Positions 11,624 through 53,531 of a stretch of DNA of 64,000 nucleotides are shown in pieces. Origin of the DNA: Gammaproteobacteria bacterium (lineage in GTDB: Bacteria; Pseudomonadota; Gammaproteobacteria; VBWC01). Numbering within the stretch: the stretch's first letter is position 1; each line of letters begins with the position of its first letter. The notes under the pieces were generated by a model. The model had not been told where the DNA came from. It ran no database searches and was given only the letters and a program-made list of their open reading frames with translations. The translations under genes were made by a program, and so were the position numbers. The stretch spans positions 80,001 through 144,000 of the forward strand of contig JAHFRU010000004.1 in the NCBI GenBank assembly GCA_023266115.1, given 5' to 3'.

Positions 11624-12430
11624 GTGCCGAAAGCGCTTCCTGATATGCCAAAGTACCAGCCAGCAATGCGAATCCTCGGCCTGCTCACCGCAGTGGCCGC
11701 AGGTATCTGGGGCGCCACCGCGATCGGTGCGGACGACATCGATCCTAACATTATCATTCCCGAGAAAATCCTCGGCTCCAAGCACGATTTCACCGGACTG
11801 AACCGGCGCGCTGGCGTCGCGGCGATGCCTGGCCTCGCTTTCTCCGATTACGGCACGCCGTGCATCTATTGCCATATTCCGCCGGATGAGGAGGAAATCG
11901 GCAGTTCATTCATGGGCGGCATCCCCGGCTGGAACCGCTTTAAGCAGGCTGGCGACTCCTTTAGCACCTATGACAGCCGTACCCTGGATAACAAGGTTCG
12001 CACACCCAGTTCGATCAGCCTGCTGTGCCTGTCCTGTCACGACGGCACGATGGCAGTCGACATGACGGTGTTCAAACCGGACGGCTGGGACAGCGCCGAG
12101 GACGCCGCGCTGCATCTAAAACTGAACGGTGCAGACGACCTGGAAAGCTGCGGCAAGTGCCATAACGGTAACGCGGCACACAGTATTGCGATCAAGCACA
12201 TCGGTACCGACCTGACCAACGACCACCCGATCTCGATGGAATACGCCGGCCTGAATTTCAAGGATCAGGATTTTCGTCCGCCGGACACACCGTTCGGCTT
12301 CAACAACGGCATCAAGCTTTACGACAACCGGGTCGAGTGCGCGACCTGTCATAACGTGCACAATCCAGACGTCAAGCTGTTGTTGCGCGTTGGCGCCGAA
12401 CAGTTGTGCGAAACGTGTCACATCAAGTAG
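11624..12430 (+). CDS. Pentaheme c-type cytochrome (doubled-CXXCH family)
   Basis: CIYCH, CLSCH, CGKCH, CATCH, CETCH; signal-peptide-like N-terminus; DLTNDHPIS motif shared with the 11-heme and 4-heme proteins of this window. Start could be 11624 or MPKYQ at 11645. Confidence 0.85.
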   Translation: MPKALPDMPKYQPAMRILGLLTAVAAGIWGATAIGADDIDPNIIIPEKILGSKHDFTGLNRRAGVAAMPGLAFSDYGTPCIYCHIPPDEEEIGSSFMGGIPGWNRFKQAGDSFSTYDSRTLDNKVRTPSSISLLCLSCHDGTMAVDMTVFKPDGWDSAEDAALHLKLNGADDLESCGKCHNGNAAHSIAIKHIGTDLTNDHPISMEYAGLNFKDQDFRPPDTPFGFNNGIKLYDNRVECATCHNVHNPDVKLLLRVGAEQLCETCHIK

Positions 12431-35058: not shown

Positions 35059-35763
35059 TTACTGTTGCGGCAGCAGATCGATGACCTGGGGCGCATCGAT
35101 CCGCCGATCGACGTCGGCGCTGTTGCGCTCGGACCACTGGCGCGCGCCGCGATCAAGAAACTTCTGTTCCTCCACCGGCAGCGGGCCACGCTTTAACGTG
35201 CTTTCCCATTCCCACAATGCCGAGCGCGCCTTGCGCACATAGGGATCATCCGGTTTGGAAAGATGGATATAGGCGCGCATCGCACCCAGCGCGCCTTCCA
35301 GATCCTGCAGCTGCTCCAGCGCGACGGCCAGGCCCCAGTAGGCGTTGGCCTGATACGGCCGCAGGTCTATCGCCGTCTGGAAAAAATCCCGCGCCGCGTC
35401 ATAGCGCTGCGCGCCGATCAGCGCGAATCCCATGTTGACATGCGCCTCCGGCATGCGCGGCGCGAGCAGCAATACTCGGTGCAACGCGGTGATGGCGTTA
35501 TCATATTGCTTCGCATGCAGCATCGCGACCGCCTGCAGAAAGCGCGTATCGATCTCGCGTTGGGCAAGCTGGCTGGCGTGCCCGGCCGGGTCCAGCTTCG
35601 CATCCACTGTCGCGGTTGGCGGCGCGTGCGCTGACGCCGCTCGCAACATGCCGGGGCGTTGCATCAGCAGCGCAATCGCCGCAATCAGTGCCACGACACA
35701 GAGCAGCGATACCAGCGCGACCGGGACGTCCTGCTGCGGATGTTCTATCACTTGTCCGGTCAT
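35059..35763 (-). CDS. Membrane-anchored TPR protein
   Basis: TM segment then TPR-like units (DNAITALHRVLLLAPRMPEAHVNMGFALIGAQRYDAARDFFQTAIDLRP); overlaps the CcsA-like gene. Confidence 0.8.
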   Translation of the reverse strand: MTGQVIEHPQQDVPVALVSLLCVVALIAAIALLMQRPGMLRAASAHAPPTATVDAKLDPAGHASQLAQREIDTRFLQAVAMLHAKQYDNAITALHRVLLLAPRMPEAHVNMGFALIGAQRYDAARDFFQTAIDLRPYQANAYWGLAVALEQLQDLEGALGAMRAYIHLSKPDDPYVRKARSALWEWESTLKRGPLPVEEQKFLDRGARQWSERNSADVDRRIDAPQVIDLLPQQ

Positions 35764-36602
35764 ATCACACCCTTGTGCACCGCCTCACTGATGAACGGCG
35801 TGCTGAAATAGGTCATGAAGGCGACGACAAAAATAATCAGAATAAAGGCCGCGCCGAGGCGGATCGGTACGTTCCAGGCCAGACGCGCATGTATCGCGCC
35901 GCCCAGCGCCAGCCAGGTCAGGAACGCCGACGTTTCCAGCGCATCCCATGACCAGAATCGCCCCCAGGCATCCTGCGCCCAGACCGCGCCGGCGATCAGC
36001 ATCAGACTGTCAAACACCAGCGCCAGCACCATGAAGCGCCACGCATACCGGTCCAGCACGTCGTCCGCCGGCAGGTGGCGCAACCACGACGCGAACCAGC
36101 CGATCCAGCGCAGCAGGATCACCCCGGCGAGACCCGAACCCACCATGGAGAACGCCAGAAAAATCTTGCCGAAACCGACGTGTGCCCACAGCCAGTCGTT
36201 GTAATAGGTCGGCGGGAACGGCGCGTCCTTCGGTTCGATCATCAGCACCCACAGACCCAGCACCCAGATAATCGGCAGCGAGACGATCGCGCCGGGGCGC
36301 AGCAGCGGCAGACGCCAGTACACCAGCGTGTAGATGGTACCGAGGCTGAACAATTGGCTGACGAGCAGTTCGAACAGATTCACAAACGGGCCGTGCCCGA
36401 TCCGCACCCAGCGCACGCCGAGGGAAACGGCGAGCAACACTACTCCGCACACCATGAACAACAACACCAGACCTTCGTAGCTGCGCGTGCCCGCCGCCAG
36501 AACCCTTTGCTGTGCGATACCGCGAAACGCGTAAAACGCCGCTAGCGCATACGCCGCCAGACCGGCCCACAACCACGGCATTTCAGTCGCTTCGCTAAAC
36601 AT
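35760..36602 (-). CDS. CcsA/ResC-like cytochrome c assembly protein (System II)
   Basis: WAQDAWGRFWSWDALETSAFLTWL (WWD-like segment); polytopic; start MFSEATEMPW at 36602. Confidence 0.88.
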   Translation of the reverse strand: MFSEATEMPWLWAGLAAYALAAFYAFRGIAQQRVLAAGTRSYEGLVLLFMVCGVVLLAVSLGVRWVRIGHGPFVNLFELLVSQLFSLGTIYTLVYWRLPLLRPGAIVSLPIIWVLGLWVLMIEPKDAPFPPTYYNDWLWAHVGFGKIFLAFSMVGSGLAGVILLRWIGWFASWLRHLPADDVLDRYAWRFMVLALVFDSLMLIAGAVWAQDAWGRFWSWDALETSAFLTWLALGGAIHARLAWNVPIRLGAAFILIIFVVAFMTYFSTPFISEAVHKGVI

Positions 36603-36610
36603 CGTTGCTA

Positions 36611-37633
36611 TCAACCCTTGTTGGTCAGCGCTGCGGACGACGCCGAATTGAGCGCGGTGATCTTGTCGGTCGCCGCGTGCACCGCCGTGAACGTCCGCCA
36701 GTAATGCGAAGCAAGCCCGATGACGCCAAGTATGGACGCGAGAAACAACCAGCGCAGTGTCGGATCGAAAAATATCTTGTAACCCATCCACTGGCGCAAT
36801 TGTTCATAACGCAACCGTCCGCCGTCCAGTACCGTTTCGTCGCCGGGTTTCAGCTCGACACGACGGTCGCCATCGTTGACGACCAGCACGCTGCCGGTGC
36901 GCCGCACATCCAGCGTCCATGCGGCGTCCTGACGCAAGCCGGTATCCAGTTGCAACCAGAACTTGATTTCGCGGCCCCCGACGGGTGTCCAGCTGTTGCT
37001 CTGCTTGAAATCAAACAGTGGATAGGACGGCATGTTGACCGTGCCGGTGACGGGTGCACCGGCGTCGGGGAGCCAGGTCAGCACCGGCGTGAATCCCTTG
37101 TTGAACGTCGTGTAAAACCGGTAGCCATCGATCACCAGCGGCGTATCGTCACCGATCACGCGCGCCTGCCATTCGCCTTTTTCGTTGCGCACCCGGATAT
37201 GGCTGCGCGTCGACCCGCGCACCAGCATCGGCTGATAGTCAACCGTGAACGGGCCCTGGGCAAACTGCACCTGATCCAGATTGCCACTGTGGAACGGACC
37301 GCTTTTGACATCGATCGCGTCGTCGATCGTAAACTGCTGCCCGTCCACCATTTCCACATGAGCCTCGTAATGGGTCAGGCGACCGACCCCGACGAGCACG
37401 ACCACGGCGAGCAGGCCGATATGAAACATCAGTAATCCCGGCCGCCGGTTGATGCGTGGATTGGTCGCAATCGCCGCAACGAGATTCACCGCCAGCACCG
37501 ACAACGGCGCCACTAGCACCCACACCGGCACTTCCGCCGGATTGCCATAAATCAGCGACGAGCCGACCGCGAGCAGCGCCATACCGACGATGGTCAGCCG
37601 CGTTGAGGACAGTAGCTTGCGAAACACAATCAT
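36611..37633 (-). CDS. ResB-like cytochrome c biogenesis protein (System II)
   Basis: TM segments, RPGLLMFHIGLLAVVVLVGVGRLTHYEA; adjacent to CcsA-like gene. Confidence 0.83.
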   Translation of the reverse strand: MIVFRKLLSSTRLTIVGMALLAVGSSLIYGNPAEVPVWVLVAPLSVLAVNLVAAIATNPRINRRPGLLMFHIGLLAVVVLVGVGRLTHYEAHVEMVDGQQFTIDDAIDVKSGPFHSGNLDQVQFAQGPFTVDYQPMLVRGSTRSHIRVRNEKGEWQARVIGDDTPLVIDGYRFYTTFNKGFTPVLTWLPDAGAPVTGTVNMPSYPLFDFKQSNSWTPVGGREIKFWLQLDTGLRQDAAWTLDVRRTGSVLVVNDGDRRVELKPGDETVLDGGRLRYEQLRQWMGYKIFFDPTLRWLFLASILGVIGLASHYWRTFTAVHAATDKITALNSASSAALTNKG

Positions 37634-37728
37634 GGCGAGTTACACATCGTTGACAGAACACGGCCGACGCACCTGCGCGACCGGCTTGATCATCTTTCGC
37701 GAGATAAACCGGCAGGGGCCCGGCCGCG

Positions 37729-40443
37729 TCAGGGCAGATCCGCGCAGCCTTCGCCGGCGACATTGGTCATCCAGGCGAAACCAATATCGCCGCTGCCCGG
37801 CGGGCCCGCCGAACCGCAGTTCGAGTCCACCCATTCGCCACTCCTGGCGAAGGAGCGTACCTTGAGCACCGATCCATTGTAGTAAGGGCCGTTCTCATAA
37901 CGGGCTTGGGTGTTATTGCGCACCTGCGTGCCCGGCGCCAGACCGCCTTCCGGACCGACGTCGTTCAGGTTGGCGAGAAACACCTTGTTCTTCCATCCGT
38001 GCGGTATCGCGATATGGCAGTAATTACAGCGGAAATTCGTCCGTACCGCGTCAATGTGGCCGTTATGCAGATTCACAACGCGCACCGGTCCTATGCAGCC
38101 GAAACTATCCGTGGTCGTGCTGAATCCGCTGGCGCCGCCCGGCGCTTCACCGACGGTCTGCGCGCGTTTGCCATATGAGTTGTAATTATGGCATTTGAAA
38201 CACAGATGGTTGTCGGTGCCCGGCGTATTCCCTGCGGCGAACCCGTCGTCGCCGTGCGTTTCTATACCGGCGATATTAGGACCGACACCGGCCCACGGCC
38301 CCTTCAACAGAAAATCATTGTTCGAACCATGCGGCCCCCACGGACTGCCCTGCTCACCGCCGCTGGGTATCGCGGTACCGGTGGCGGTATTGGAGCCATG
38401 GCAATCGGTGCAGTACATGGTCTGGATACCCACGCCCTGCTCGAATGGCGGCAACCAGCTGCTGGATAACAGATTCATCTTGAGATCGCTGGTCTTCGGC
38501 GCGGGCCGATTAACGAAATAACCACCCGCCGAACCTGCACGCACCACCGGCGTTCTGCCGGTCTCCGTCAACACCGGGTGCCACGAGCGGTGGTTGTTTG
38601 CCGCGTACGCGGCGGCCGCGCCGCTGGAGGTACCGGAGGTTCCTTCGCCTTTATGATCGCCCGGCGACTGGTACTCCATGCCCTGGTTGGTGTACTGGCT
38701 CATGTTGTTGGTGCCCGCCGGGGTACCGCCGGAAAAACTGCCGAGGAACGGCGCCGTGTCGTAGGCGTAATTGGAATGGCATTTCAGACACACCTGGTAC
38801 TCGCGCGTCACGTGCGGGGCGCTGACCGCTGTGGTGGCGCCGGTTCCGCCGTCGCCGCGCTTGGCCTCGAAGGCGATCGGCTGGCTGCCAAACTGGGTAC
38901 CGGACCATGCCGTCGGTTCGACACCCCAGATACCACGTAGCACGCCGGAGGCAATATTTGTATGCACGGCCTCACCCGCCGCGCTGATCTGCGCCGGCGT
39001 GTGGGGATGGGTGCCTTCGGTGTCCGGAATCGCATTGTTGGCGTTGAACAAGCGGTTCTTCACCACGCGGTGCGGATTGTGGCAATCGGTACACTCCGCA
39101 TGACGGTTGTTCAGATTGCCCTTGCCCATGTTGAGCGGCGATTCGACGAAGTCCTTGCCGGCCTGATTGGGCACATCCGGATTCGGCGAACCGATGTTAT
39201 GCATTTCGGTTCCCGCCGGCTGATCGGCATTGGCGATCGGCATATGGCGGAACATCGTCGTGAAATCCGTCTTGATGTTCGGCACCTCGAAGGTAATGCC
39301 GCCCTGACCCTGCAGCGTCCCGCCGTCCGGCGAATGGCACGCGTAACAGGTTTCCTCGATCGCCGGGTTGCCACCCTGTTTGAATTTACCGCCGGTTGCA
39401 GCATCCACAAGCTGCGGCCCGTCGGTGCCTTCACGAAGAATGCGTCGCGAACCCTGCACCGTGTGCGGGTCATGGCAGTTCAGGCACGCGGCCTGCCAGA
39501 CCTGGATGTCTGCCGGAAATTCGCGTATCGCCGCAGCCTCCGGTGTATAGCGCTCGTTGCCGACGACCTGGCTCGCATGCGCGGAACCCGCCCAGCCTTC
39601 CTTGTCATGGCAGGCGACGCAGATAATATCGCTGCCGGGATCAAAATCGCCGCCCGTCGGCACGTTTTCCTGGAACCGGTTCACGCGCAGAAACTTGATG
39701 TTCTTGTTCGGATCCGTATCGCGGATATGCGGGTCGTGGCACGAAATACATTCCACCTTGTTGTCTTCCAGCGGAATTGTCGGCCGCCGGTCGATTTCCG
39801 GCGTCGTGGAATCCAGATTGCCTTGTTTGCGGTTGCGAACATGCGCGTTGCCAACCGGATTGCGCAGTTCACCGTCGCGATTGAACTGCGCCAGATCGTA
39901 GGTGAACGAAATGGGGTGGTCGTTGCTCAGGTCAGTGCCGAGGCGTCGCGTAAAGCCCGTGGTCGGGCCCGCTCCTTCCGGAATCGTACCGCCCGGCCCG
40001 GGATTGTTACCGGCCATCGCGATGTTCGGATTGCCCCGGCCGTTAAGTACGTTGACCGCGCCGACCGCCAGCGTACCGTCGTGACACGACAGGCACAGCT
40101 TCGACTTGCCATTTGGCTGGCTCAGATCTATGGCATCAAGCGATCCCGAGGTATACGGCGTATAGGTCGCCGCCGTCAGCGAACGGTTCCATAACGGCGC
40201 CCGCGGTTCCACGGAGGCGCCGTGCGGCGTATGGCAGAACGCGCATATCTGGGATTCGCTGGCGGCTTCGATATTACGTTTCGCGCCGCCGGGCAGCGTG
40301 GGTTCAACCGTATGGGAAAAGTTATGCCGCGTGTTGCGGATGTCCGCAATCCGGTCGGCGAAAGAACAGACCGACCATAGCGCCAGCAGTACACCGGCAC
40401 ACAGCCCGACCCGAGTTGGAATTGAACGCCACCTTTCCTTCAC
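37729..40443 (-). CDS. Undecaheme c-type cytochrome (11 CXXCH), secreted; UetJ-like candidate
   Basis: CAFCH, CLSCH, CISCH, CVACH, CLNCH, CYACH, CTDCH, CLKCH, CTDCH, CFKCH, CNYCH counted in the 904-aa translation; signal-peptide-like N-terminus. Confidence 0.92.
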   Translation of the reverse strand: MKERWRSIPTRVGLCAGVLLALWSVCSFADRIADIRNTRHNFSHTVEPTLPGGAKRNIEAASESQICAFCHTPHGASVEPRAPLWNRSLTAATYTPYTSGSLDAIDLSQPNGKSKLCLSCHDGTLAVGAVNVLNGRGNPNIAMAGNNPGPGGTIPEGAGPTTGFTRRLGTDLSNDHPISFTYDLAQFNRDGELRNPVGNAHVRNRKQGNLDSTTPEIDRRPTIPLEDNKVECISCHDPHIRDTDPNKNIKFLRVNRFQENVPTGGDFDPGSDIICVACHDKEGWAGSAHASQVVGNERYTPEAAAIREFPADIQVWQAACLNCHDPHTVQGSRRILREGTDGPQLVDAATGGKFKQGGNPAIEETCYACHSPDGGTLQGQGGITFEVPNIKTDFTTMFRHMPIANADQPAGTEMHNIGSPNPDVPNQAGKDFVESPLNMGKGNLNNRHAECTDCHNPHRVVKNRLFNANNAIPDTEGTHPHTPAQISAAGEAVHTNIASGVLRGIWGVEPTAWSGTQFGSQPIAFEAKRGDGGTGATTAVSAPHVTREYQVCLKCHSNYAYDTAPFLGSFSGGTPAGTNNMSQYTNQGMEYQSPGDHKGEGTSGTSSGAAAAYAANNHRSWHPVLTETGRTPVVRAGSAGGYFVNRPAPKTSDLKMNLLSSSWLPPFEQGVGIQTMYCTDCHGSNTATGTAIPSGGEQGSPWGPHGSNNDFLLKGPWAGVGPNIAGIETHGDDGFAAGNTPGTDNHLCFKCHNYNSYGKRAQTVGEAPGGASGFSTTTDSFGCIGPVRVVNLHNGHIDAVRTNFRCNYCHIAIPHGWKNKVFLANLNDVGPEGGLAPGTQVRNNTQARYENGPYYNGSVLKVRSFARSGEWVDSNCGSAGPPGSGDIGFAWMTNVAGEGCADLP

Positions 40444-41519
40444 GCGCCACCCAGATATTCGAATACCACCACGCGACCGTTAAACATGTCCGCCACATAG
40501 ACTTGTCGTCCGGTATCCGTCCAGACTCCGGCCGGTAAATAGAACTGGCCCGTCCCACTCCCAGTGCCACCGATAGGCATCAGCAGATTGCCGTCGGCAT
40601 TGAATACTAACAAATGGTCGTAAAACGATTCCACCACATAAATCAAACCGTTACTATCTACCGCCACGCCTTTCGGCCGCGGCAGGTCGCCGATGAACAG
40701 ACCCCGACGCCCGATGACCTTGCGGCTCTCCCCGGCAGGCGAAAGCACCTGGATACGCGAGTTAAACGTATCGGTCACGTAGAGCTCGCCGTTCGCAAAC
40801 GCCAGATAGGTCGGCGCATTGAACTCACCCGGCTCGGTGCCGGGCCTGCCCAGCGTCCTGACCAGATCACCCGCCCGGTCAAACACCTTGATATCGTGTG
40901 CCCGGCCGTCGGCGACATAAATCTCGCCACTCTGCGGATCCGTGGCCAGCCCCGTCGGCCGCAATATCTTGCCCTGTCCAATCGTGCCGACGGGCTCACC
41001 GAGCGCATTGAGCCGCACGACGTAGCCGAGCTCCGCGTCCGCCACCAGTAACTCGCCGTTGTCTCCGCCGGCAATTCCCACCGGCATCGAGAAACGCAGG
41101 TTCTTACCGGCCATTTCCCAGACATGCAGTCTGCCCGCCGGCACGTCAAACACATACACGGCCTGACGGCTGACATCGGTTACAAAAATTCGCCCGCTGG
41201 CGTCAACGTAACCGCGTTGCGGTCTTTGCAACACGACCGCCTGATGCTTACTCGACGCAAGCCCCACCAGCCATTTCAACGCCTTTTTACCAAATTGCAG
41301 CGCGGCATTCGGTTCGTCGGCCGGCGTAAAATTGTCTTCGCCGGTCAATTCGCCGACGTACCGGTAACGCGGCTGATCCGGCGGCGGCGGAAACACGTGC
41401 TGCTCCGGTCCTGGGGAACCCTGCAGCTGAAACCTTTCGGGCACAGCCGCGCACGCAGACAACAACAACGTTGCAATCACAAACGCGACGCCTGTTTTGC
41501 AACGCAACACGTTTCTCAC
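40440..41519 (-). CDS. NHL-repeat beta-propeller lipoprotein
   Basis: Lipobox LLLSAC; VFPPPPDQPRYRYVGEL; NHL repeats; stop overlaps GTG start of the undecaheme gene. Confidence 0.85.
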   Translation of the reverse strand: MRNVLRCKTGVAFVIATLLLSACAAVPERFQLQGSPGPEQHVFPPPPDQPRYRYVGELTGEDNFTPADEPNAALQFGKKALKWLVGLASSKHQAVVLQRPQRGYVDASGRIFVTDVSRQAVYVFDVPAGRLHVWEMAGKNLRFSMPVGIAGGDNGELLVADAELGYVVRLNALGEPVGTIGQGKILRPTGLATDPQSGEIYVADGRAHDIKVFDRAGDLVRTLGRPGTEPGEFNAPTYLAFANGELYVTDTFNSRIQVLSPAGESRKVIGRRGLFIGDLPRPKGVAVDSNGLIYVVESFYDHLLVFNADGNLLMPIGGTGSGTGQFYLPAGVWTDTGRQVYVADMFNGRVVVFEYLGGA

Positions 41520-41531
41520 TGTAGCGCTCGG

Positions 41532-42545
41532 CTATTCCTCAATCGCTTCCTTGACGACGCGCAATATCTGGATCCGGCCATTCAGGCTGTCAGCAACATA
41601 GATAAAACCCTGGTCCAGCCACATATCGGTGATACGCCGGAACTTGCCCGGTGCTGAACCGGTTCCGCCTGAACGCGCCACCAGCAGATCACCCTGATAG
41701 ATTTTGATCGTATTATCAATGAAATCGCTGACAAATACGAGGTTATCGTCACTGACGACAACACTGTTGGGGTAAGCAACCGAATCGCGCGGTAGCGAAT
41801 ATCGGTAGCTGCCGTCGTCGCCCAGCACCTGGATGCGGTCACCAACGCGAGCGATGATATAAAGTCCCTCGGGCCCGCGCGCCATCCCGGTGATATTCAG
41901 AAACTGTCCCTCGTGGGTACCGCGCTTGCCAATCGCCGTCAACGCCTCCCCTGTACTATTAAACACGACGACGTGATCCATCACACCGTCGGCGACAAAG
42001 ACATAACCGGTGCTGTCGTCCACCGACACCGACACCGGCCGGCGCAGGTTCAGGGTGTTCTTGAACTCGCGTATCTGACGACCGCGCTGGTCAAACTGCA
42101 GCACGCGCGCGCCACCCCAGTCAGCGATGAAAAAATCGAGATTTGGTGTCAGGAAGATATCGGTAACGTCGCCGGTTACCGTCCCCTGCAGATCGACGAG
42201 TTCGATAAACTCCCGTCGGTTCCGGTCAAAGCGCAGCACCTTCTGCTGATCCGCATCGACAATCAGGATCGTGTCCCCCCGCGCTGCAACAGCGACGGGC
42301 CGTTTAAGGCGTACGTCGCGGCGTCCGACGATACCATTGCCCTCGATGCCCGCCTCGATAGTTTCCCACGGCAGCAAGACCTCGGCGACCAGTCCAACCG
42401 CGGCAGCGGCCGTCGAGACGGTATCCGTTTCCTCTGAAAACAGGTTTTCGGTCTGCGGCGGCTGCAGACTGCAACCGCCGACAAGCAGCGAGCCGCTAAA
42501 GAATACGCTTAGCGCAAGAAACCGGATTCGCGCGATACGGAATGA
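41532..42545 (-). CDS. NHL-repeat beta-propeller lipoprotein
   Basis: Lipobox LLVGGC; repeated NHL-like units; start MSFRIARIRF at 42545 inside the previous gene. Confidence 0.82.
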   Translation of the reverse strand, partial: SFRIARIRFLALSVFFSGSLLVGGCSLQPPQTENLFSEETDTVSTAAAAVGLVAEVLLPWETIEAGIEGNGIVGRRDVRLKRPVAVAARGDTILIVDADQQKVLRFDRNRREFIELVDLQGTVTGDVTDIFLTPNLDFFIADWGGARVLQFDQRGRQIREFKNTLNLRRPVSVSVDDSTGYVFVADGVMDHVVVFNSTGEALTAIGKRGTHEGQFLNITGMARGPEGLYIIARVGDRIQVLGDDGSYRYSLPRDSVAYPNSVVVSDDNLVFVSDFIDNTIKIYQGDLLVARSGGTGSAPGKFRRITDMWLDQGFIYVADSLNGRIQILRVVKEAIEE

Positions 42546-43069
42546 CATCGTCCACAATTCATGGTTGGCGGAAAGGCAACTTTTCCGTGACAGACGCCGC
42601 AATACTCCCCCTGGATAATCGCGGACATCGTTACAGGATTACCGCCCTTCTGCGGAAGAAATATCGATGGGTGACAGTTCAGACAGGTCAACCATTCCGT
42701 GTGGGGCCGGTGCGGAAAACGAACATACGGCATCGACCCGGTATTCTTGAAAATGATATCGAAATCGGCCGGGAACATTTCCTCGTCACCCAACAGGCTT
42801 TTGCGCGGATTAATAAGCCCCGAATCCAGCACCTCCACCCAGTTGATGATGTTCTGACCGTCGCGGGGAAATCCCTTCATCGCTTCAAAAGGCTGCTGCA
42901 GGACATTGACAGCATCGTTGGTCGGGTCATGGATTCCGTCATCCGCGACGCGCACCTCTTCGCCACGCAACTGAAAGTGCTGGCCCCTGATCCAGACAGG
43001 CACCTCTGTCGCCATAGCACCAGACACAAGCACCGTCATCAACAGGAATACAAGACTAAGTCGCAACAT
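42509..43069 (-). CDS. Triheme c-type cytochrome
   Basis: CLNCH, CGVCH, CGRCH; DGIHDPTNDAV; FPHRPHTEWL; signal-peptide-like N-terminus. Confidence 0.87.
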   Translation of the reverse strand: MLRLSLVFLLMTVLVSGAMATEVPVWIRGQHFQLRGEEVRVADDGIHDPTNDAVNVLQQPFEAMKGFPRDGQNIINWVEVLDSGLINPRKSLLGDEEMFPADFDIIFKNTGSMPYVRFPHRPHTEWLTCLNCHPSIFLPQKGGNPVTMSAIIQGEYCGVCHGKVAFPPTMNCGRCHSVSRESGFLR

Positions 43070-43134
43070 GTATCACTCGCGCGTCAATTGCTTCAGATGC
43101 CGGTGGCCGCGCATGCGCGGCCACCGGGATATTA

Positions 43135-44511
43135 TCATCGTACGCCAGCCGTCATCAGCGCACGCTGCATTTGATTGGTTGCTTCCTGCATACCGATAAT
43201 AGCAGTTTCGTAGTCCCCTTTCTTCGCATAGCCTGCGGCTTCGCCAGCGATTTTCTTGCCTTTCTCTACAAAGGTGTTAATCAGTTGGACCACATCTTCC
43301 GCCGGTTGTTTCTGTTCCAGCGCCAAAGGGACCAGGTCCGCGAATCCTTTGTAGCGCGCAACTTCAAACTGATACTCTTCTGCCGGCGTTTTGAATTTCT
43401 GATCGTAAACCACTGCCTCGCCCTGGAACGCCTGGCTCAATGCCGACGTTACCATGGACTGCGCCTTTTCCAGCGTGTCCGCTGCTTCCTTGTATTTGCC
43501 GTCGGTAGACAACGCAATGGCGTCGTCCTCCATCTTTTGTATGGTTTTCGGGTCCAGATCCGACGAACTATCGCTACGTTTGGACTTCGTCTTGCGCTCG
43601 TACTGCTGCAGATAGGATTCCTTGTAGTTCCTCAGATTGCCAAGCAATTCGGCGTAGCGTACGCGGTGATCGACGCCATCACTTCCTTCCTTGGGCACAA
43701 GGCCTACAGCGGTGTTCGCATCATCAATTGCCTTTAACGCGCTTTCCATCGCAGCACTGTTATTTCCGCCCTGCAGCGCGGACTCCGACGCGGCAAGATC
43801 CGCCTTCGCCTGTTCCATTTTCGCCCGCGCTTCGGCGTGTCCACTGTCGGCGACACGTTTCGCCGACTGCGACATCGTCAGCATTTTCGCGTAGGCAATT
43901 TTCTGCTTTACGTCCGCATCGGAAACCACGACAGGCTTCGCGCCCCCTGATACGTCTCCCGGCTTGTGCTCAAGCGTGACCTTTTCACCTTCGTTGACAA
44001 TGTGCATCAGGCCGCCCATGTTCTTATGGTTACGACACTGATAAAACATCCGTCCTGGCGTCTGCTGGTTCGGCGAAAACGCCACCATACCCTTATAGGT
44101 AAATTGTCCAAGCACACCATCCGTCACGGTTCCGGCACCCCGACCGACTTCGTCGGTCGTCAGATAGAAATCGTGCTGGATATTGGTCTCGACATCAAAC
44201 GCGTAGGTTACGCCGCGGGTCAGTACCAGTTCCTTGCTTTCCTCTCCGTCGACGGCAAAACCGATCTCTTTGCCCTGGCCATAAAACATGTGGGCCGGCG
44301 TTTTTGGCTTCACGGTAACTGTGAATGTCCGTGCCGCCTTGCTAACCGCCGCGGCCAGTTCCTGCTTGGCGTCATCCGTCTTCGAGGCGGCAGCAGCAAG
44401 CATTAACGGTGCATGATCGGCCATATGGACGTGCGACGACTCGGCGTAAACACCAATGGGGAGCAGTATGGGCAGCGTCATCACGATGACGCTTCGGGTC
44501 AACTTCTTCAT
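43135..44511 (-). CDS. Cupredoxin-like periplasmic protein with C-terminal alpha-helical region
   Basis: NIQHDFYLTTDEVGRGAG ... FYQCRNHKNMGGLMHIV (C-x2-H-x2-M candidate copper site); helical C-terminal half; start MKKLTRSVIV at 44511. Confidence 0.78.
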   Translation of the reverse strand: MKKLTRSVIVMTLPILLPIGVYAESSHVHMADHAPLMLAAAASKTDDAKQELAAAVSKAARTFTVTVKPKTPAHMFYGQGKEIGFAVDGEESKELVLTRGVTYAFDVETNIQHDFYLTTDEVGRGAGTVTDGVLGQFTYKGMVAFSPNQQTPGRMFYQCRNHKNMGGLMHIVNEGEKVTLEHKPGDVSGGAKPVVVSDADVKQKIAYAKMLTMSQSAKRVADSGHAEARAKMEQAKADLAASESALQGGNNSAAMESALKAIDDANTAVGLVPKEGSDGVDHRVRYAELLGNLRNYKESYLQQYERKTKSKRSDSSSDLDPKTIQKMEDDAIALSTDGKYKEAADTLEKAQSMVTSALSQAFQGEAVVYDQKFKTPAEEYQFEVARYKGFADLVPLALEQKQPAEDVVQLINTFVEKGKKIAGEAAGYAKKGDYETAIIGMQEATNQMQRALMTAGVR

Positions 44512-44575
44512 GAACAATATCTCCTTACTGTTGATCACGTTACCCTGCCCCCCCCAGTGGCCAGCATTCCTGGAA

Positions 44576-45301
44576 CTACTTCCAGGGATTGTTCACCGTG
44601 GCACTGCTCAACGGCGGTTTCCAGTCATCGGGTTTCGGCTTCGAATGGCACTTCTTGCACGTCTTGGTTTCGATTGGAAATGAAACCTTGCCGTGGCAGA
44701 CACCGCATTTCTCGCCGAGCAAAATCGCCGACATACTGATCTGGTTGGCGCCTTTCTGCGGAATGAAAATCGCCGGATGGCAATTCGAGCAGGCGAGCCA
44801 TTCAGTATGTTGCCGATGCGGGAACACCACATCGGGCATCGATGCCTTGACCGGCCGGACGATATCCATATCCAGTACGAAGGGCTCTTCGTCGGGATTG
44901 ACTCGATCCCAACGCGGTGCAAGCGCCTTCTGATCGATCGACTTTACCCAATCGACCTGGTTACCGAACGTACTTTCCGGCAAACCCTTGAACGCCACCT
45001 TTGGGGGCTGTAACGCAAATGTTGCTTCGTTATTGGGATCGTGGATTCCGTCTTCCGGCGGAGGGAGGTTTGCCTCATGCTTCTTCAGGTTCTGGTTAAA
45101 TGTGTTTGCGGAAGATACGTCGGCGAGATGCATAACCTCGCTTTCGGAAATGGCCGCAAACACGGAACCCTGATCCGTGGACGAACTCCACTCAACCGCA
45201 GCCGGCTGTGCCGGTTGCAGTACCTCCGAACTCCAGGCGGTAACGGCAATCAACATCGTAACGAGAGCCGTCAGCCAACGTGCATGTGCTTTATAACTCA
45301 T
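44576..45301 (-). CDS. Triheme c-type cytochrome
   Basis: CSNCH, CGVCH, CKKCH; DGIHDPNNEAT; FPHRQHTEWLACSNCHPAIFIPQKGANQISMSAI closely matches the 42509-43069 product. Confidence 0.88.
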   Translation of the reverse strand: MSYKAHARWLTALVTMLIAVTAWSSEVLQPAQPAAVEWSSSTDQGSVFAAISESEVMHLADVSSANTFNQNLKKHEANLPPPEDGIHDPNNEATFALQPPKVAFKGLPESTFGNQVDWVKSIDQKALAPRWDRVNPDEEPFVLDMDIVRPVKASMPDVVFPHRQHTEWLACSNCHPAIFIPQKGANQISMSAILLGEKCGVCHGKVSFPIETKTCKKCHSKPKPDDWKPPLSSATVNNPWK

Positions 45302-45313
45302 GACGGTTACCCC

Positions 45314-45754
45314 TCACTTTTTGTCTGCAGGCTTTTCCAACGCCTTGTAGGTCGGCGCAATCAGACGCTGAACGGTACTGCCGTGAAAATGCGTCGGTGT
45401 TCCCGGAATTCCCGAGTGACACATACCGCAGTTTTCCACCGACCACGCGATTTCTCCGTTGTGGCAGGCACCACAAAACTGGCCATCAATAATCTTGGCC
45501 ATGTTGATTTTATTTCCGCCTGCCTTGAACTGAAATCCCAGATCGGCGTGACATACCTTGCACCGGAAGCGAACCCGGTGGAACCAGTGAGGGAAAATAA
45601 CCGGCCGCATGCCCGCAGCATCTGCATAGTTGTTGATCACAACGTCCGCATACTCGGCATGTGCCACCTGTGGTAGAGCAAAAGCGGTCAGACTTGCCAT
45701 CATCGCAAACACGGCTGACCTCCCCAGATTACGACGCTGTGCATTCAGTGCCAT
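45314..45754 (-). CDS. Triheme c-type cytochrome (cytochrome c7/c3-like)
   Basis: CKVCH, CGACH, CGMCH; VIFPHWFHRVRFRCKVCH; signal-peptide-like N-terminus. Confidence 0.87.
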   Translation of the reverse strand: MALNAQRRNLGRSAVFAMMASLTAFALPQVAHAEYADVVINNYADAAGMRPVIFPHWFHRVRFRCKVCHADLGFQFKAGGNKINMAKIIDGQFCGACHNGEIAWSVENCGMCHSGIPGTPTHFHGSTVQRLIAPTYKALEKPADKK

Positions 45755-45854
45755 AGCGATCTATCTCCTCGTTATTGCAAATAAAACAGTCAGATAATAA
45801 ACCGTTTTTTGCTCTTACCCCCCGCTGTATCGGCTGGCAAGGCAAAACTTCAAC

Positions 45855-47654
45855 CTAGAAACTACGCGTGACCTGGAAATAGATCAGGTCCGTTTGTTCC
45901 CCCCCTTGATCGAACATCCGCCAGCTCAGGCGCGTACTCACGAGCCCGATATTATAGTCCAATCGGTTCTCCCATTCGAATCGGTCGAGCCCTTTGTCAT
46001 TCGCCGCCTGAGAATGCGATAAATCCGACAGGTAGCGCAACCTCGGTATTCCGGCAACGCGCGAATGCTGGAAGGTTAATCTGGCCACCAGCGTTTCGGT
46101 TTCGCTCGTCCCTAAACTGCCAAAATCCTGATTGACCATCTGCCAGGTCAGGTTACCCATTAATGACATTAACCGGCTAAGTGGCTGCGTCCGGCTCAAC
46201 TGGAGGTTGAGAAACTGCTGCTCGTCATCCTGATCGCCAAAATTACGGGAATCCTGCAATATGGCCTGCATTAACGACGAGCCACCCCAGCGCAAATGGT
46301 TCCAGCTCGTCGTCATTGTATGGTCCAGTCGATACTCGGTTGCGCTGTTGCCGGACTGAATATTGGGGCTGAATGACTGGCCAACAGACCCGCGTATCGT
46401 CGAGAAATCGCTGGGCACCCAAAAACGGCTCAGATCATGCGATAACGTACCACCAAATGTCTGCCGGTTCTCGATGTCGCTGCTCTGTGTCGCGGCAAAA
46501 GCGTTCGCAAACCACTGATAGGTATATCCACTCAGATCGTGGACATCGGACTGGTACAGCGCACCGGTACGCAGATTGGTCACCGTCGACGAACCGCCGT
46601 CGCTCTCCAGGAGTGCCACGTCCCCGCGCGCATCCAGCCGCCAGCCCTTGGTCAGCTGGTAGAATCCCCCCAGCGTTCCGCTCAACGACGTGGTTTCCGT
46701 CGTTTTCGGTATGCCAGTGTAGACACTTAGCCCCGAAGCCGCCAGGTTGAACAGCCGCACACCGCCGGTGATGGTCAGCGGCCGATCCTGTGGCCGCCAG
46801 AACGCAAAACTGGAAATCTGTATCTGGTCGGTCTCGCGGCTGCCGCCGGTGCTCGCCACCTTGAAAGAATCGTCGGTCTGAACGATGTTCGTCAACGTAT
46901 CAACCCGCAAACTTTTGTGCGGAAAATAAAAATGATCGGCCTCGACGATAAGACTGTCGCGTTCCTCCCCCGTCCGCACCCGTTCGGTTGTCTGCGTGGT
47001 TAGCTCCGCGATCAGGCGCTGCCGGGGCATGCGCAGATCGGCCTCGAAACCCATAGACTGGTCTTGCACCACCCCGCTGATACTGGAGTCCCATTCGCTA
47101 AAATCGAGCTTGGCCCGGTATCGATGACCGGTCTGCGTGATATAGGCCTGGGTCAGCCCGAGCCGCTGGGTTTTGAAATCCTGGCCGATCTTTACCAGGG
47201 AATTTAAGGAATTGCTCGGCGCGGCGGCTGTCGTGTCCACGCGACTATCGGACGCCAGGTACATCATGGTGAACGGCGTGGCGCTCTGTGGCAGCAGGTT
47301 GAGGTTGAGCTCCCCTGTCGCGATTTTCGATTCGGTATCACCCCCGCCACCGTATTCCGTATTGTCCAGCGTCGCAGTCAATCTCGCACCCACCTGGGCA
47401 AACCAGGGCCGCCAGATATACGTGTTGCCGGCCAGCGTACCGAGATACTGATTGCTGATGGTTTTATCGTCGCCGGTGGTCAGCGAGCGATACGTGTATC
47501 CGACATTCCCGGACCAATCGATCGGCGGCAGATCGGCCGTAGACAATACGGGCACCGCCGCGAGCGAGATCGCGGCCACGGAAAATACGCTGCGGCTGGC
47601 CCACTGTCGCAATTGGCTCGAGGAATAATTTGTCAACCGCGTCCGCGACAGCAT
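45855..47654 (-). CDS. Outer-membrane beta-barrel protein (candidate porin of a porin-cytochrome conduit)
   Basis: 599 aa, signal-peptide-like N-terminus, alternating amphipathic strands, terminal aromatic (FQVTRSF). Confidence 0.75.
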   Translation of the reverse strand: MLSRTRLTNYSSSQLRQWASRSVFSVAAISLAAVPVLSTADLPPIDWSGNVGYTYRSLTTGDDKTISNQYLGTLAGNTYIWRPWFAQVGARLTATLDNTEYGGGGDTESKIATGELNLNLLPQSATPFTMMYLASDSRVDTTAAAPSNSLNSLVKIGQDFKTQRLGLTQAYITQTGHRYRAKLDFSEWDSSISGVVQDQSMGFEADLRMPRQRLIAELTTQTTERVRTGEERDSLIVEADHFYFPHKSLRVDTLTNIVQTDDSFKVASTGGSRETDQIQISSFAFWRPQDRPLTITGGVRLFNLAASGLSVYTGIPKTTETTSLSGTLGGFYQLTKGWRLDARGDVALLESDGGSSTVTNLRTGALYQSDVHDLSGYTYQWFANAFAATQSSDIENRQTFGGTLSHDLSRFWVPSDFSTIRGSVGQSFSPNIQSGNSATEYRLDHTMTTSWNHLRWGGSSLMQAILQDSRNFGDQDDEQQFLNLQLSRTQPLSRLMSLMGNLTWQMVNQDFGSLGTSETETLVARLTFQHSRVAGIPRLRYLSDLSHSQAANDKGLDRFEWENRLDYNIGLVSTRLSWRMFDQGGEQTDLIYFQVTRSF

Positions 47655-47666
47655 CTCAGATAGCCG

Positions 47667-48665
47667 TTATCGTTGCTGCTCTGGTTGCCCGTGCTGCCGT
47701 TGCGCGGGGTCCCGATAGATAGTAATGATGGTGTTGTCGTGCAAGTTCTGAATGAATGCATCCCACGTACGCTCCACCTGATCTCTCAACAACAGTTCCG
47801 TAGCGCGTTCATGTGCCCCGGAAAAATCGTTAAGCACTGACGAAATCGTCTCGTCCAGCCGCAGTATGGCGATCCCCTGAAGCAATCTGACCGGTTTCGA
47901 AACCTCGCCTGCATCCAAGCCATCCAACACCCGTTGCGCATCGGCCGCCAGCATGCCTTGGTGTACCGCGCCAAGATCGCCGCCTTGCTGCGCTGACTCG
48001 TGATCCGAATATTCACGCGCCAGCTTGCGGAAATCCGCGCCGTCACGAAGCTGCGCTACAAGCTGCTGCGCGCGCGCTGTCGCGTCCTGCCACTGCTGGT
48101 TCGTCGCCCACGGATCGACGTGCAGCAGAATCAGCGAAACACGGGCGCGCGCCGGGGTAACGAACTTGTCCTTGTGGTCGTCGTAATAACGGCGAATAGC
48201 CGCCTCATCCGGACGCGGAACGTCTTTTACACCGGCCTCTAGTTGCTCGAGCAAATCGTTTTCCTCAAGCTCGGAGCGCAATTGCCCGAGTAGTGCGTCA
48301 CGATGACTGCGCCACCCTGGCGATCGCTGGTTACGCGCATCCACCGTCGCGATCCGGCTATCGATTCTTTCTCGGCGCGGTACGTAGCCGCGGCGCTTCG
48401 CTTCCTGCAGCAACAACGTCCTGTCAATGACAGCCCGCTCTACCTCCCTGTTAAATTCCTCCACTTTCTCTGACGGCAAGCCGCCATGAAAAAAACGCTG
48501 GCGGGCAAGCGCGCGCGATACTGCTTCGTAGCGCTCCCAACCCACTTTCTCGTTGCCAACCACAGCAAACACCCCATCGCCAAGCCGCAATCCCGCTTGC
48601 CAGGCCGTTCCATCGTCAGCCAGAACCGCGGGCGACAGTGCAAAAACAAGCAGTAACCGCCACAT
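47667..48665 (-). CDS. PpiC/parvulin-type peptidyl-prolyl cis-trans isomerase, exported
   Basis: RARVSLILLHVDPWATNQQWQDATARAQQLVAQLRDGADFRKLAREYSDHESAQQGGDLGAVHQGML; signal-peptide-like N-terminus. Confidence 0.85.
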   Translation of the reverse strand: MWRLLLVFALSPAVLADDGTAWQAGLRLGDGVFAVVGNEKVGWERYEAVSRALARQRFFHGGLPSEKVEEFNREVERAVIDRTLLLQEAKRRGYVPRRERIDSRIATVDARNQRSPGWRSHRDALLGQLRSELEENDLLEQLEAGVKDVPRPDEAAIRRYYDDHKDKFVTPARARVSLILLHVDPWATNQQWQDATARAQQLVAQLRDGADFRKLAREYSDHESAQQGGDLGAVHQGMLAADAQRVLDGLDAGEVSKPVRLLQGIAILRLDETISSVLNDFSGAHERATELLLRDQVERTWDAFIQNLHDNTIITIYRDPAQRQHGQPEQQR

Positions 48666-48806
48666 ACCGCGACCGCCTCGTGGACCCGCACCAGTTTTCG
48701 TAACCGTATCCCTTTCTCCTGTGCGTCATCCGGGCACACCATCGCCGCCTTTCGGGGAATTGCATCCCCCGTTTACGGGGGGCCCCGCAAACCACACACA
48801 CTCACG

Positions 48807-49631
48807 TTATTTAGCGTGACAGGTCAGACAGACCGCACTGCCACTGGGATCAATCCGCAGAAAGGTGGGATTTTCATCCACGTGGGGATCATGGCAGGAA
48901 GCACATTCCACATACGGCTGCGGTTCACCGGCGTTGACACCCAGCGTCCCTGTTCGGGTATACAACTTGAGATCGGTTCTTTCGAAATTGGACGTACCGA
49001 TTGGCGTATTCATCCACCAGAAGCGTGTATCACCGACGAACGCCGATTGCGGCCGATTAAAATCAGGATCGCGGCCCGGGCCGGCAGGATTCGAAATGGA
49101 ATACCCGCCGCCGGCAAACTGCACGCCGATTGCGTGATCGTTCGTCAGATCCTTGCCGAGATTCGTAATAACGGTCGCGGGGCCGAGGCGCCCACCCACC
49201 GTTGCCGCCTGGCCACTCCAAACGCCATTGCTGAATGCCTGGACGTCAGCACCAGAACCTGGTTCGTTGATCAAGGAGTCCATTGCCTGGGTACCGTCAT
49301 GGCAGGACAAACAGGCAATTGAAACAGAACCAATCGGCTCTATCGAGGCATCGAGCGTTGTCGTGCCAAGTTGATCGTAGGTAGTAAAACTTCTTGGCTC
49401 AGCGAGATGCCGATTCCACAGCGGTACCGCCGCGGTCGCGTCGGCACCGTGCGGCGTATGGCAGAACACGCAGACTTCTGGCGTGCCACTGAAGTTGCTG
49501 GCCGCATTGACTCCGCCCATTCCGAGATTATGCTTTGTGTTTGCAATACCGGCCGTTGCGGTACCGCTCAACCCAAGCAAGGTTACCACCAAGAGCGTTG
49601 ACCAATACGGGTGTAGTCTTCCCGGTTTCAT
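48807..49631 (-). CDS. Tetraheme c-type cytochrome (doubled-CXXCH family)
   Basis: CVFCH, CLSCH, CASCH, CLTCH; FCHTPHG, PLWNR, DLTNDHAI motifs shared with the undecaheme protein N-terminus. Confidence 0.87.
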   Translation of the reverse strand: MKPGRLHPYWSTLLVVTLLGLSGTATAGIANTKHNLGMGGVNAASNFSGTPEVCVFCHTPHGADATAAVPLWNRHLAEPRSFTTYDQLGTTTLDASIEPIGSVSIACLSCHDGTQAMDSLINEPGSGADVQAFSNGVWSGQAATVGGRLGPATVITNLGKDLTNDHAIGVQFAGGGYSISNPAGPGRDPDFNRPQSAFVGDTRFWWMNTPIGTSNFERTDLKLYTRTGTLGVNAGEPQPYVECASCHDPHVDENPTFLRIDPSGSAVCLTCHAK

Positions 49632-49996
49632 TCTTACCCCCTATCCCCGCACGTTTTGTATCACAGTTTGCGAAAAACTGTCAATGAAAACCGTAAGTTA
49701 GAGTAAAATATTCCGACAGTCGCGGCGCGATGTCACTCGTTGCTCATCGGCCGCCGCGAACGATTTTTCAACGTAAAACACCAAGTTAGTCGCGGTTCAG
49801 TCCTGCCGGCCAGGCCGTCGGCCGCGGACACGGCGGATCACCAACAACCGACCTCGATGCTCCGTATAGCGAGCCCTCCCGCAACCGGATGCGCCGACTG
49901 TGACAACTCATGGGCGAATTCGCGCGTTTCCCGCGGACCGCGGTGTCGTTTATACCGGGGGCGATGCATTTGCACAATAGCTCAGAATACACAAAC

Positions 49997-50029
49997 AAAA
50001 AAGCCGGGCTTTATCGGCCCGGCTTTTTT
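49997..50029 (-). terminator. Rho-independent terminator downstream of the 50051-51106 gene (potentially bidirectional)
   Basis: AAAAAAGCCGGGC-TTTATCG-GCCCGGCTTTTTT. Confidence 0.85.
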
Positions 50030-50050
50030 GCGAAGAAGAACTAGCTCTTC

Positions 50051-51106
50051 TTAACCACCCACAACTGCAATGAACTCCAGCACAATGCTGTTTTCCGATA
50101 CTTCAGCAACACCGGACTCGCCGTTGTCTAGCTTGCGGTACTCAAGATTTGTGGTCAGCTTGTCGGTCGGCTTCCAGATGCCCACCAACGTCATGGTCTT
50201 ATCATTACTGTTGGTGGTAGCTTCGAAGTTGACGATGTCAAAACGACCGGTCACGCCCCAACCATTGCCAAAGTCATAGTTACCGAGCAGTGCGTAAGCG
50301 CTGTCGACTATCTTGCCCGCCGAGAAGATTTCGCCAGCGACGGTCAAACCACCGGTTTTCCAGACAGCGTTCAGGTCGATCAGATTCTCCATCGAAGCGG
50401 GGTTTCCGGCTTTGTTGCTTTCCTGAGTCAACACGCCCAATTCCAGCGCTAAGCCGTCCATTACCTCGCCATCGACCGCGAACAGTAATGAATTGGCTTC
50501 GTTGTTACCTCTGATTTCGTTCAACAGGCCGACCTGGATATTGGCAGGACCCACGCCAAACGCCAGCTCCGCGCCGCTAACGTTGTTGCCGGAATGAATC
50601 GATGTCTGACCGGCCAGTATGTTATAGATCTGGCCATGCGACACCGACCAGATGTTCGGGGCGTCTTCCGCTTCCAGACCAACCGGGTTATTGAATAAAC
50701 CGCTCTTCAGCGCCAAACCATCATAGATATTCCAGCTGAAAAACGCCTGTTCCAGGCTGGCACTGTTACCCGTGCCATTGTCCAACATCAGATCGACATC
50801 CATGCGGACGCTCAAATCGCCTTCAGCCGCCATCAAATCGACTTCGCCAGAGGTATTGAACTTATGCACGGTCGAGTTTGCAGCACTGCCATCTACATCC
50901 GTCGCAGTGGCGCTACAGGCAGCCATCGAACTGTTCGGGCCAGCGAATGAAAGACCGGTTACGCTACCATTCGGGTTATCACAGGTATCGTTCGCAATGT
51001 CGAACGTTACATCGGCAAAACCGCTGGCAGAAAAGTCCACGGCCTGAGCCGACAACGGTGCGGCAAACACGCTGGCTACTGCCATGGCAATAAGTTTCTT
51101 GTTCAT
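50051..51106 (-). CDS. Outer-membrane porin-like beta-barrel protein
   Basis: MNKKLIAMAVASVFAAPLSAQA signal peptide; FSASGFADVTFDIA; SWNIYDGLALKSGLFNNPVGLE. Confidence 0.75.
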   Translation of the reverse strand: MNKKLIAMAVASVFAAPLSAQAVDFSASGFADVTFDIANDTCDNPNGSVTGLSFAGPNSSMAACSATATDVDGSAANSTVHKFNTSGEVDLMAAEGDLSVRMDVDLMLDNGTGNSASLEQAFFSWNIYDGLALKSGLFNNPVGLEAEDAPNIWSVSHGQIYNILAGQTSIHSGNNVSGAELAFGVGPANIQVGLLNEIRGNNEANSLLFAVDGEVMDGLALELGVLTQESNKAGNPASMENLIDLNAVWKTGGLTVAGEIFSAGKIVDSAYALLGNYDFGNGWGVTGRFDIVNFEATTNSNDKTMTLVGIWKPTDKLTTNLEYRKLDNGESGVAEVSENSIVLEFIAVVGG

Positions 51107-51297
51107 GAGATGCGCTCTCCCCAATTGATTAATCAAGTCAAGGTTTTCCTTGAGCTGACCAATTTAGCAACTTTATTCCGAAATGCAACAGATATTTATC
51201 GAAAAAGCGACAAAGGAGGTAAATCGTTGCTTATATACAACACTGGAGCGCTATTGGGTGTGAAGCGGGCGAACACAAAAGATGGCGGGAAACGAGA

Positions 51298-52484: not shown

Positions 52485-53531
52485 CTAGCGCTCCACCGGG
52501 ATAACGACCCCGTTGGGTGTAGCAGGCAGCTGCGGAAACATCTGTAGCGGGAGCTCGCCCGTGAGGCTGTTGAGAAACGCCACAATGGCGTCTACCTGCC
52601 CGCCGTTAAGGTCAATATTCACCTGCGTCTTTGCCATCACCCGAACCGCCTCATCCAGGGTCGCAACCGACCCGTTATGAAAATATGGCGCCGTCAACGC
52701 GACGTTCCGCCAGGTGGGCACGCGCCACATGTTCTTGTCCTCGTCCTGTTTGGTAACCTCGTAGCGGCCCAGATCCTGGGTGAGCCGATACTGGCTATCA
52801 TAGGTTGAGCCCGGGAAAACCGGGAATTTTTGAAAAAAACTCATGCCCATCGGCATGGATGCGGGTCCGGCGAAATTCGGACCGTTATGGCAACCCGTGC
52901 AGCCAACATCCTGGACCAGTTGCATGCCCAGCTTTGCTTTCTCGGATAAGCCGCCCTCTTCGCCACGCAAATACCGGTCAAACGGGCTATTCGGGGTCAC
53001 CAATGTACGCTCGTAGGCAGCGATGGCCTTGGCGACGTTGTCATAGGTCAGGGGGGTATTTCCGCCGAACACCGCGAGGAACTGGTCGCGATAACCCGGA
53101 ATCCGGTTCAGCCGGTCCAGCACGGCCTGCGCGTTCGGCATACCCATCTCGATCGGGTTAAGGATCGGGCCCTTGGCCTGATCTTCCAGTGTCGCGGCGC
53201 GGCCATCCCAGAACTGCGCGGTCAAAAACGCGGCGTTCCACACCGTTGGCGCCGAACGGCCGCCTTTCAGGCCGCTGACACCGATGGAAACCGAGCGATT
53301 GTCGGTGCCGCTCGCCATCACGTTGTGGCAGGAGTTGCACGACACCGTACCATCGATCGACAGCCGCGGATCAAAAAACAGCTGTTTGCCCAACTCCACC
53401 TTGGCGGCACTCATCGGATTATCCGATGGAATCGGCGGCAGCGCCGGCAGTGCTTCCATCGCGCTGGCCAGCGCCGGCAACCACGCCATTGCGCCAATAG
53501 CGATAATCGCTGCTCGCTTCATAGCGTTCAT
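52485..53531 (-). CDS. Diheme cytochrome c peroxidase (CcpA/MauG family)
   Basis: CNSCHNVMASGTDNRSVSIGVSG; CTGCHNGPNFAG; ELGKQLFFDPRLS. Confidence 0.92.
   Translation of the reverse strand: MNAMKRAAIIAIGAMAWLPALASAMEALPALPPIPSDNPMSAAKVELGKQLFFDPRLSIDGTVSCNSCHNVMASGTDNRSVSIGVSGLKGGRSAPTVWNAAFLTAQFWDGRAATLEDQAKGPILNPIEMGMPNAQAVLDRLNRIPGYRDQFLAVFGGNTPLTYDNVAKAIAAYERTLVTPNSPFDRYLRGEEGGLSEKAKLGMQLVQDVGCTGCHNGPNFAGPASMPMGMSFFQKFPVFPGSTYDSQYRLTQDLGRYEVTKQDEDKNMWRVPTWRNVALTAPYFHNGSVATLDEAVRVMAKTQVNIDLNGGQVDAIVAFLNSLTGELPLQMFPQLPATPNGVVIPVER

Follow-up and report, generated by a model that had tools for sequence, protein, structure and literature searches.

A Uet-type multiheme cytochrome cluster in a gammaproteobacterium: OmcE-like cytochromes and a putative maturation module

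It has long been asked how autotrophs acquire electrons from electrodes and minerals. One proposed route, the undecaheme electron transfer (Uet) pathway, has so far been studied only through sequences and expression data, for the most part in a bacterium without a pure culture. Its components have been described as a tetraheme cytochrome (UetA), a peptidyl-prolyl isomerase (PPIase; UetB), a barrel (UetC), three triheme cytochromes (UetDEG), two NHL proteins (UetHI) and a cytochrome with 11 or 12 hemes (UetJ) (PMC10734462). The pathway is known from iron-oxidizing Gallionella (PMC10734462), had been noted earlier in the Leptothrix/Sphaerotilus group (PMC13386937), and in Candidatus Tenderia electrophaga includes the trihemes Tel_16515, Tel_16520 and Tel_16530, the TPR protein Tel_16525 and the undecaheme Tel_16545 (PMC5371394). 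Here we analyze a gene cluster at positions 37729-49631 of a 64,000-nucleotide stretch (hereafter the window; positions 80,001 to 144,000 of contig JAHFRU010000004.1) from a gammaproteobacterial genome assembly (GCA_023266115.1; 3.1 Mb in 46 contigs). The cluster is a member of the known, experimentally unproven Uet system. We consider it, with a probability of roughly two in three, to be the Uet system of a RuBisCO-bearing gammaproteobacterium, organized as a 13-gene unit and transferring electrons inward across the outer membrane.

The uet cluster and described electron conduits

All ten open reading frames (ORFs) named in the original prediction were found in the predicted order on the minus strand, tightly packed with intergenic gaps of -94 to +141 nt, several of which are overlaps or 12 nt. 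They encode a tetraheme cytochrome of the paired-CXXCH family, a candidate filament subunit (uetA, 48807..49631); a PpiC/SurA-type PPIase (uetB, 47667..48665; PF00639, 3e-19); a 599-amino-acid (aa) outer-membrane beta-barrel (uetC, 45855..47654); two c7-type triheme cytochromes, one periplasmic (uetD, 45314..45754; TIGR04257, 2.6e-18) and one with an N-terminal extension (uetE, 44576..45301; TIGR04257, 4.9e-17); a 467-aa protein with a cupredoxin and a TPR-like helical region (uetF, 43135..44538); a third c7-type triheme cytochrome (uetG, 42509..43069; TIGR04257, 3.7e-18); two NHL-repeat lipoproteins (uetH, 41532..42602, PF01436; uetI, 40440..41519, PF01436, 1e-28); and a paired-CXXCH undecaheme cytochrome (uetJ, 37729..40443). 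The five cytochromes carry 24 CXXCH motifs (4+3+3+3+11), not 25 as first counted.

The succession tetraheme-PPIase-barrel-triheme-triheme-(TPR/cupredoxin)-triheme-NHL-NHL-undecaheme is the published Uet order. The link to Ca. Tenderia electrophaga proposed originally is borne out by gene order, heme counts and locus-tag spacing, the five published Tel tags falling exactly on the positions of D, E, F, G and J. Compared with the Uet clusters of Ca. Tenderia electrophaga (by its published description), Gallionella and Leptothrix/Sphaerotilus relatives, the ten genes, their order, their heme counts and the tag spacing are the same. UetJ has 11 CXXCH motifs, as do 99 of 103 relatives, and undecaheme homologues with 11 motifs are present in three Gallionellaceae metagenome-assembled genomes (MAGs). 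The order and heme counts (4 in A, 3 in D and G, 11 in J) recur in homologous clusters of dozens of genomes from many families, far beyond what chance would give.

The AlphaFold2 model of UetC is a 28-strand barrel (predicted local distance difference test, pLDDT, 89.2; predicted template modeling score, pTM, 0.67). A Foldseek search with this model returned many outer-membrane barrels, including MtrB (6r2q_B, TM score 0.43), and no specific relative, and in the alignment the C-terminus is aromatic in most relatives. The 599-aa protein is therefore predicted to be a barrel, and the outcome named originally as refuting, that it is not one, did not occur. At the sequence level, no Pfam or NCBIfam model matched UetC, its profile gave only chance-level matches in the PDB, and it was not matched by the MtrB/PioB family (TIGR03509), for which a genome-wide search was also empty, its controls matching nowhere. 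MtrB has 26 strands. The cluster thus shares with MtrCAB and MtoAB a large outer-membrane barrel accompanied by multiheme cytochromes, and to this extent the MtrABC-type logic suggested originally applies; however, UetC has no MtrB/PioB match and 28 predicted strands instead of 26, and the cytochromes are not decahemes of the MtrA or MtrC type, the best DmsE/MtrA-type score in the cluster being 40 bits, where the cut-off is 192. An Mtr/Mto operon was rejected for want of family matches. The PCC3 systems of Sideroxydans and Gallionella likewise combine a predicted porin with large multiheme cytochromes in iron oxidizers, but the heme numbers of these cytochromes are 21-27 and 10-35, and the triheme/NHL/PpiC set has not been described for PCC3 (PMC10734462).

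Among the remaining components, UetD, UetE and UetG each scored above the cut-off of the NCBIfam model nanowire_3heme (TIGR04257). UetD aligns to the triheme units of the dodecaheme c7 polymer GSU1996 (3ov0_A; E=1.2e-41 over four stretches), although the Uet trihemes are three separate proteins whereas GSU1996 is one four-unit chain. Two further nanowire_3heme genes lie outside the cluster, on contigs C28 and C46 of the same genome, and match uetG at 60% and 50%. The cupredoxin assignment of UetF held as well: H122, C168, H171 and M174 form a type-1 copper pattern that is conserved in about 40 relatives, while in Pfam the protein gives only a weak At5g54830-like match. Its helical region has TPR-like matches. 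A lipobox is present in 43 of 58 relatives of UetH and 83 of 102 relatives of UetI. The listed TTG start of uetH at 42602 is probably too early; with the ATG at about 42548, the lipoprotein signal is cleaner. UetB is a probable periplasmic chaperone for the barrel or the cytochromes.

A putative maturation module downstream of uetJ

The ten-gene extent originally assigned to the cluster is too narrow. When the ORFs around uet loci were clustered all against all, with unbiased flanks, only three families besides A-J were frequent, namely a ResB-like (58 loci), a CcsA-like (44) and a TPR family (37), whose genes lie just downstream of uetJ on the same strand. In the window, these are a ResB/CcsB-like cytochrome c maturation protein (36611..37633, minus strand; PF05140, 2.9e-12), a CcsA/ResC-like heme-handling membrane protein (35760..36791, minus strand; PF01578, 2.9e-19), the true start of which is probably near 36620, and a TPR protein with an N-terminal membrane segment (35059..35763, minus strand; TPR families, weakly CcmH/CycH-TPR-like), which is a candidate apocytochrome chaperone. 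There is no strong terminator between uetJ and resB. Limiting the counts to loci with enough sequence, the ResB gene follows uetJ in 53 of 59 loci, CcsA in 42 of 49 and TPR in 34 of 43; the complete set of three occurs at 34 of 43 loci, and the order is always J-ResB-CcsA-TPR. Distances of the three families correlate with those of uetJ (r=0.63, 0.60 and 0.52 for ResB, CcsA and TPR, compared to 0.71 for uetA and 0.77 for uetC), with shared ancestry contributing to these values. The ten-gene span was therefore rejected as the complete unit, and the functional Uet unit comprises 13 genes, from 35059 to 49631.

As PF05140 and PF01578 are both over their cut-offs in adjacent genes, the two genes constitute a ResB/CcsB plus CcsA/ResC pair, and the ResB-like gene is the single ResB match in its genome. 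The same genome encodes a System I CcmF (window 21862-23853, minus strand), and because of this the ResB/CcsA/TPR genes are probably an extra cytochrome maturation module dedicated to the cluster. In Geobacter, each ResB/ResC pair has been suggested to be dedicated to the adjacent cytochromes (PMC2700814), and we read the uet module in the same way. Compared with System II (Res/Ccs), the ResB and CcsA families stand side by side in both, but the uet ResB-like protein is short (340 aa), and the pair accompanies System I CcmF rather than replacing it. Attached maturation genes would also explain why the transfer of just the ten genes to another host might fail. Tandem duplicates of uetJ occur within one cluster at six loci, four of which lack ResB, CcsA and TPR genes within the stretch examined.

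OmcE-type cytochromes UetA and UetJ

UetA is homologous over its full length to OmcE, the subunit of a cytochrome nanowire in Geobacter. In phmmer searches it matched OmcE (7tfs_A) with E=6.7e-24, the match covering both halves with their four CXXCH motifs up to the C-terminal CHxK, and a further solved multiheme protein (9yuq_N) with E=1.1e-23, again over both halves. It has a Sec signal and no lipobox. All eight heme-ligand histidines of UetA (the four of the CXXCH motifs, with H34, H61, H166 and H250) are invariant in 29 of 29 sequences, and the positions of H34, H61, H166 and H250 are also histidine in OmcE. UetJ combines an N-terminal OmcE-like four-heme domain (residues about 30-280) with a seven-heme extension: its residues 13-242 match OmcE with E=3.3e-21 (2e-31 with a profile), and the four CXXCH histidines of this domain, with H40, H74, H176 and H239, are invariant in 23 of 23 sequences. 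A second paired-CXXCH cytochrome gene in the window (11624-13503, plus strand), 37% over 182 aa to the OmcE-like domain of UetJ, is directly followed by an NHL propeller gene, the two forming an OmcE-like/NHL pair outside the uet cluster.

The remark in the original prediction that NHL propellers and PpiC isomerases occur near nanowire cytochrome genes in Geobacter was apter than could be known, because UetA is itself an OmcE homologue. The Geobacter omcE locus (ppcA, ResB/ResC, GSU0615-0617, omcE) adjoins the triheme c7 gene ppcA (GSU0612) and a ResB/ResC pair (GSU0613-0614) (PMC2700814; PMC7894505). Going by these published descriptions, both loci unite an OmcE-type cytochrome with triheme c7 and ResB/ResC-like genes, UetA and the N-terminal domain of UetJ being the OmcE homologues on the uet side. 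In OmcE filaments, one heme is ligated by a histidine from the neighboring subunit (PMC9473688; PMC12954529), and therefore this ligand is probably among the histidines conserved in UetA.

Distribution, direction of electron transfer and neighboring genes

Of 369 gammaproteobacterial genomes, 40 have UetC; in a sample of 399 genomes from across the phylum, 22 do. A scan of GTDB genomes with UetJ gave at least 563 related stretches. The 80 best of these, from which taxa and carriers were taken, include Gamma-, Beta- and Alphaproteobacteria, Magnetococcales and one MAG labelled Nitrospirae, in which UetJ stands alone on a short 5-kb contig. The cultured carriers among these 80 comprise Ramlibacter alkalitolerans, Piscinibacter caeni, Rubrivivax sp. 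A210 and Sphaerotilus mobilis, and their clusters make Uet testable. The order of the genes is conserved across the carriers. The UetJ tree has two clades. One is gammaproteobacterial, includes the cluster of the window and has a UetF with the full copper site; the other contains Alphaproteobacteria, Betaproteobacteria, Magnetococcales and some Gammaproteobacteria, and here UetF is usually split into two proteins, which lack copper ligands. One locus (L040) is exceptional in that it branches with the second clade yet keeps the copper site. Since the second clade mostly lacks copper ligands, copper in UetF is optional rather than required. Plasmid searches with UetA and UetC returned no matches and so do not point to carriage on plasmids. 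At five loci, a UetJ-type 11-heme gene stands alone, with no uet context; at two of these (L082 and L083), it is followed by a conserved 350-aa gene resembling dihydroorotase.

Uet is thus far more widespread than reported in the Uet literature compared, outside which lies the original description (PMC9599434). The ResB/CcsA/TPR module, the homology of UetA with OmcE, the division into copper and split-UetF clades and the spread into Alphaproteobacteria and Magnetococcales are not described in that literature, and their novelty is provisional. The cluster is of interest for these additions to its anatomy, for the relation to OmcE and for the occurrence of Uet in cultured strains.

RuBisCO was present in 39 of the 40 UetC-positive gammaproteobacterial genomes and in 150 of the 329 UetC-negative ones (p=1.4e-11); with a stricter E-value limit, the counts were 36/40 and 134/329 (p=1e-9). 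By family, all 19 UetC-positive families were RuBisCO-positive, compared with roughly half of the rest (the family total being estimated). The genome studied here encodes two large subunits of RuBisCO and has matches of the heme-copper oxidase type. Because RuBisCO is near-constant with UetC, the co-occurrence favors electron uptake for lithoautotrophic growth. In Tenderia, the uet trihemes are among the most highly expressed genes on the cathode, and uetJ expression clusters with ACIII, NUOR and complex IV-2 (PMC5371394).

It is plausible from the encoded proteins that the cluster transports electrons across the outer membrane. With gene content, homology, conservation, the barrel model, the conserved maturation genes and RuBisCO co-occurrence directly supported, we infer where each protein lies, which path the electrons take, what donates them and that they move inward, as follows. 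The ResB/CcsA pair and the TPR protein would attach heme to the cytochromes of the cluster, while UetB would escort barrel and cytochromes across the periplasm. UetC would span the outer membrane as a wide barrel. Outside, UetA and/or UetJ may accept electrons from a donor, solid or soluble, such as Fe(II), a mineral or an electrode. Electrons might then cross UetC via the hemes of UetJ or UetA to reach the trihemes of the periplasm (UetD, UetE and UetG) and UetF, the copper protein, and from these pass to the respiratory chain, serving O2 respiration and, by reverse electron flow, CO2 fixation. The NHL lipoproteins UetH and UetI might act as docking platforms at the outer membrane.

Several points weigh against inward transfer as just outlined. 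The RuBisCO association is confounded by phylogeny; AlphaFold2 gave no usable model of UetJ (pLDDT 38), possibly because a heme-packed chain was modeled without its cofactors; and the Uet literature compared reports no experiment on any Uet protein. Relatives of the cluster occur in genera such as Ramlibacter, Piscinibacter and Sphaerotilus, which are known mainly as organotrophs. In Tenderia, the expression of uetJ and the trihemes did not differ significantly with potential (PMC5371394). Further, undecaheme cytochromes have been reported from a manganese-reducing betaproteobacterium, Ca. Dechloromonas occultata (PMC13264449), and the direction may therefore differ. The same conduit could indeed run outward and reduce Mn(III/IV), Fe(III) or an anode, in respiration rather than lithotrophy, and besides the manganese reducer and the organotrophic genera, the outward transfer performed by OmcE and c7 relatives in Geobacter speaks for it; however, with the near-obligate RuBisCO co-occurrence in Gammaproteobacteria, the heme-copper oxidase-type genes of the host and the description of Uet from cathode or iron oxidizers (PMC5371394; PMC10734462), we consider this direction unlikely. 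In other taxa, outward use may occur. A periplasmic system for redox or metal homeostasis, for example of copper or under oxidative stress, with no electron exchange with the outside, would agree with the cupredoxin in UetF and with the Sec-type N-termini that are all most of the cytochromes have. Given the large, conserved outer-membrane barrel encoded midway through the operon, two OmcE-type cytochromes and the absence of the copper domain from one of the two clades, such a role seems very improbable.

Inward transfer might also take a more specific form, which refines rather than opposes it: UetA may polymerize outside the cell into an OmcE-type heme filament, with UetJ as its base or cap at UetC, and the PpiC, NHL, TPR, ResB and CcsA proteins as assembly and maturation factors. 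Pointing to this are the full-length homology of UetA to both solved structures, the invariance of its CXXCH and distal histidines, the equivalent histidines in the UetJ domain, the probable conservation of the inter-subunit ligand and the makeup of the Geobacter omcE locus. On the other hand, homology is no proof of polymerization, the same histidines could bind within one subunit, and the physiological role of cytochrome filaments is disputed (PMC13194489). The interpretation is reasonable on the protein comparisons, and we hold it tentatively, at less than even odds; more doubtful still is the complete version, in which aerobic CO2-fixing proteobacteria would build OmcE-type nanowires of UetA, anchored by UetJ at a 28-strand barrel and served by a dedicated maturation module, for electron uptake. 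If UetA does polymerize, cytochrome nanowires would reach from anaerobic metal reducers to aerobic lithoautotrophs.

Upstream of uetA lies a strong terminator-like hairpin (49995..50031, minus strand; 15 pairs and a T-rich tail), which likely separates the uet operon from the preceding gene, a BBP2/OmpL-like porin (50051-51136, minus strand). Similar porins occupy the equivalent place in 19 related loci and are far rarer neighbors than the ResB, CcsA and TPR genes. Farther upstream, near ribosomal protein genes, the window contains a MauG/CcpA-type diheme peroxidase (52485-53531, minus strand).

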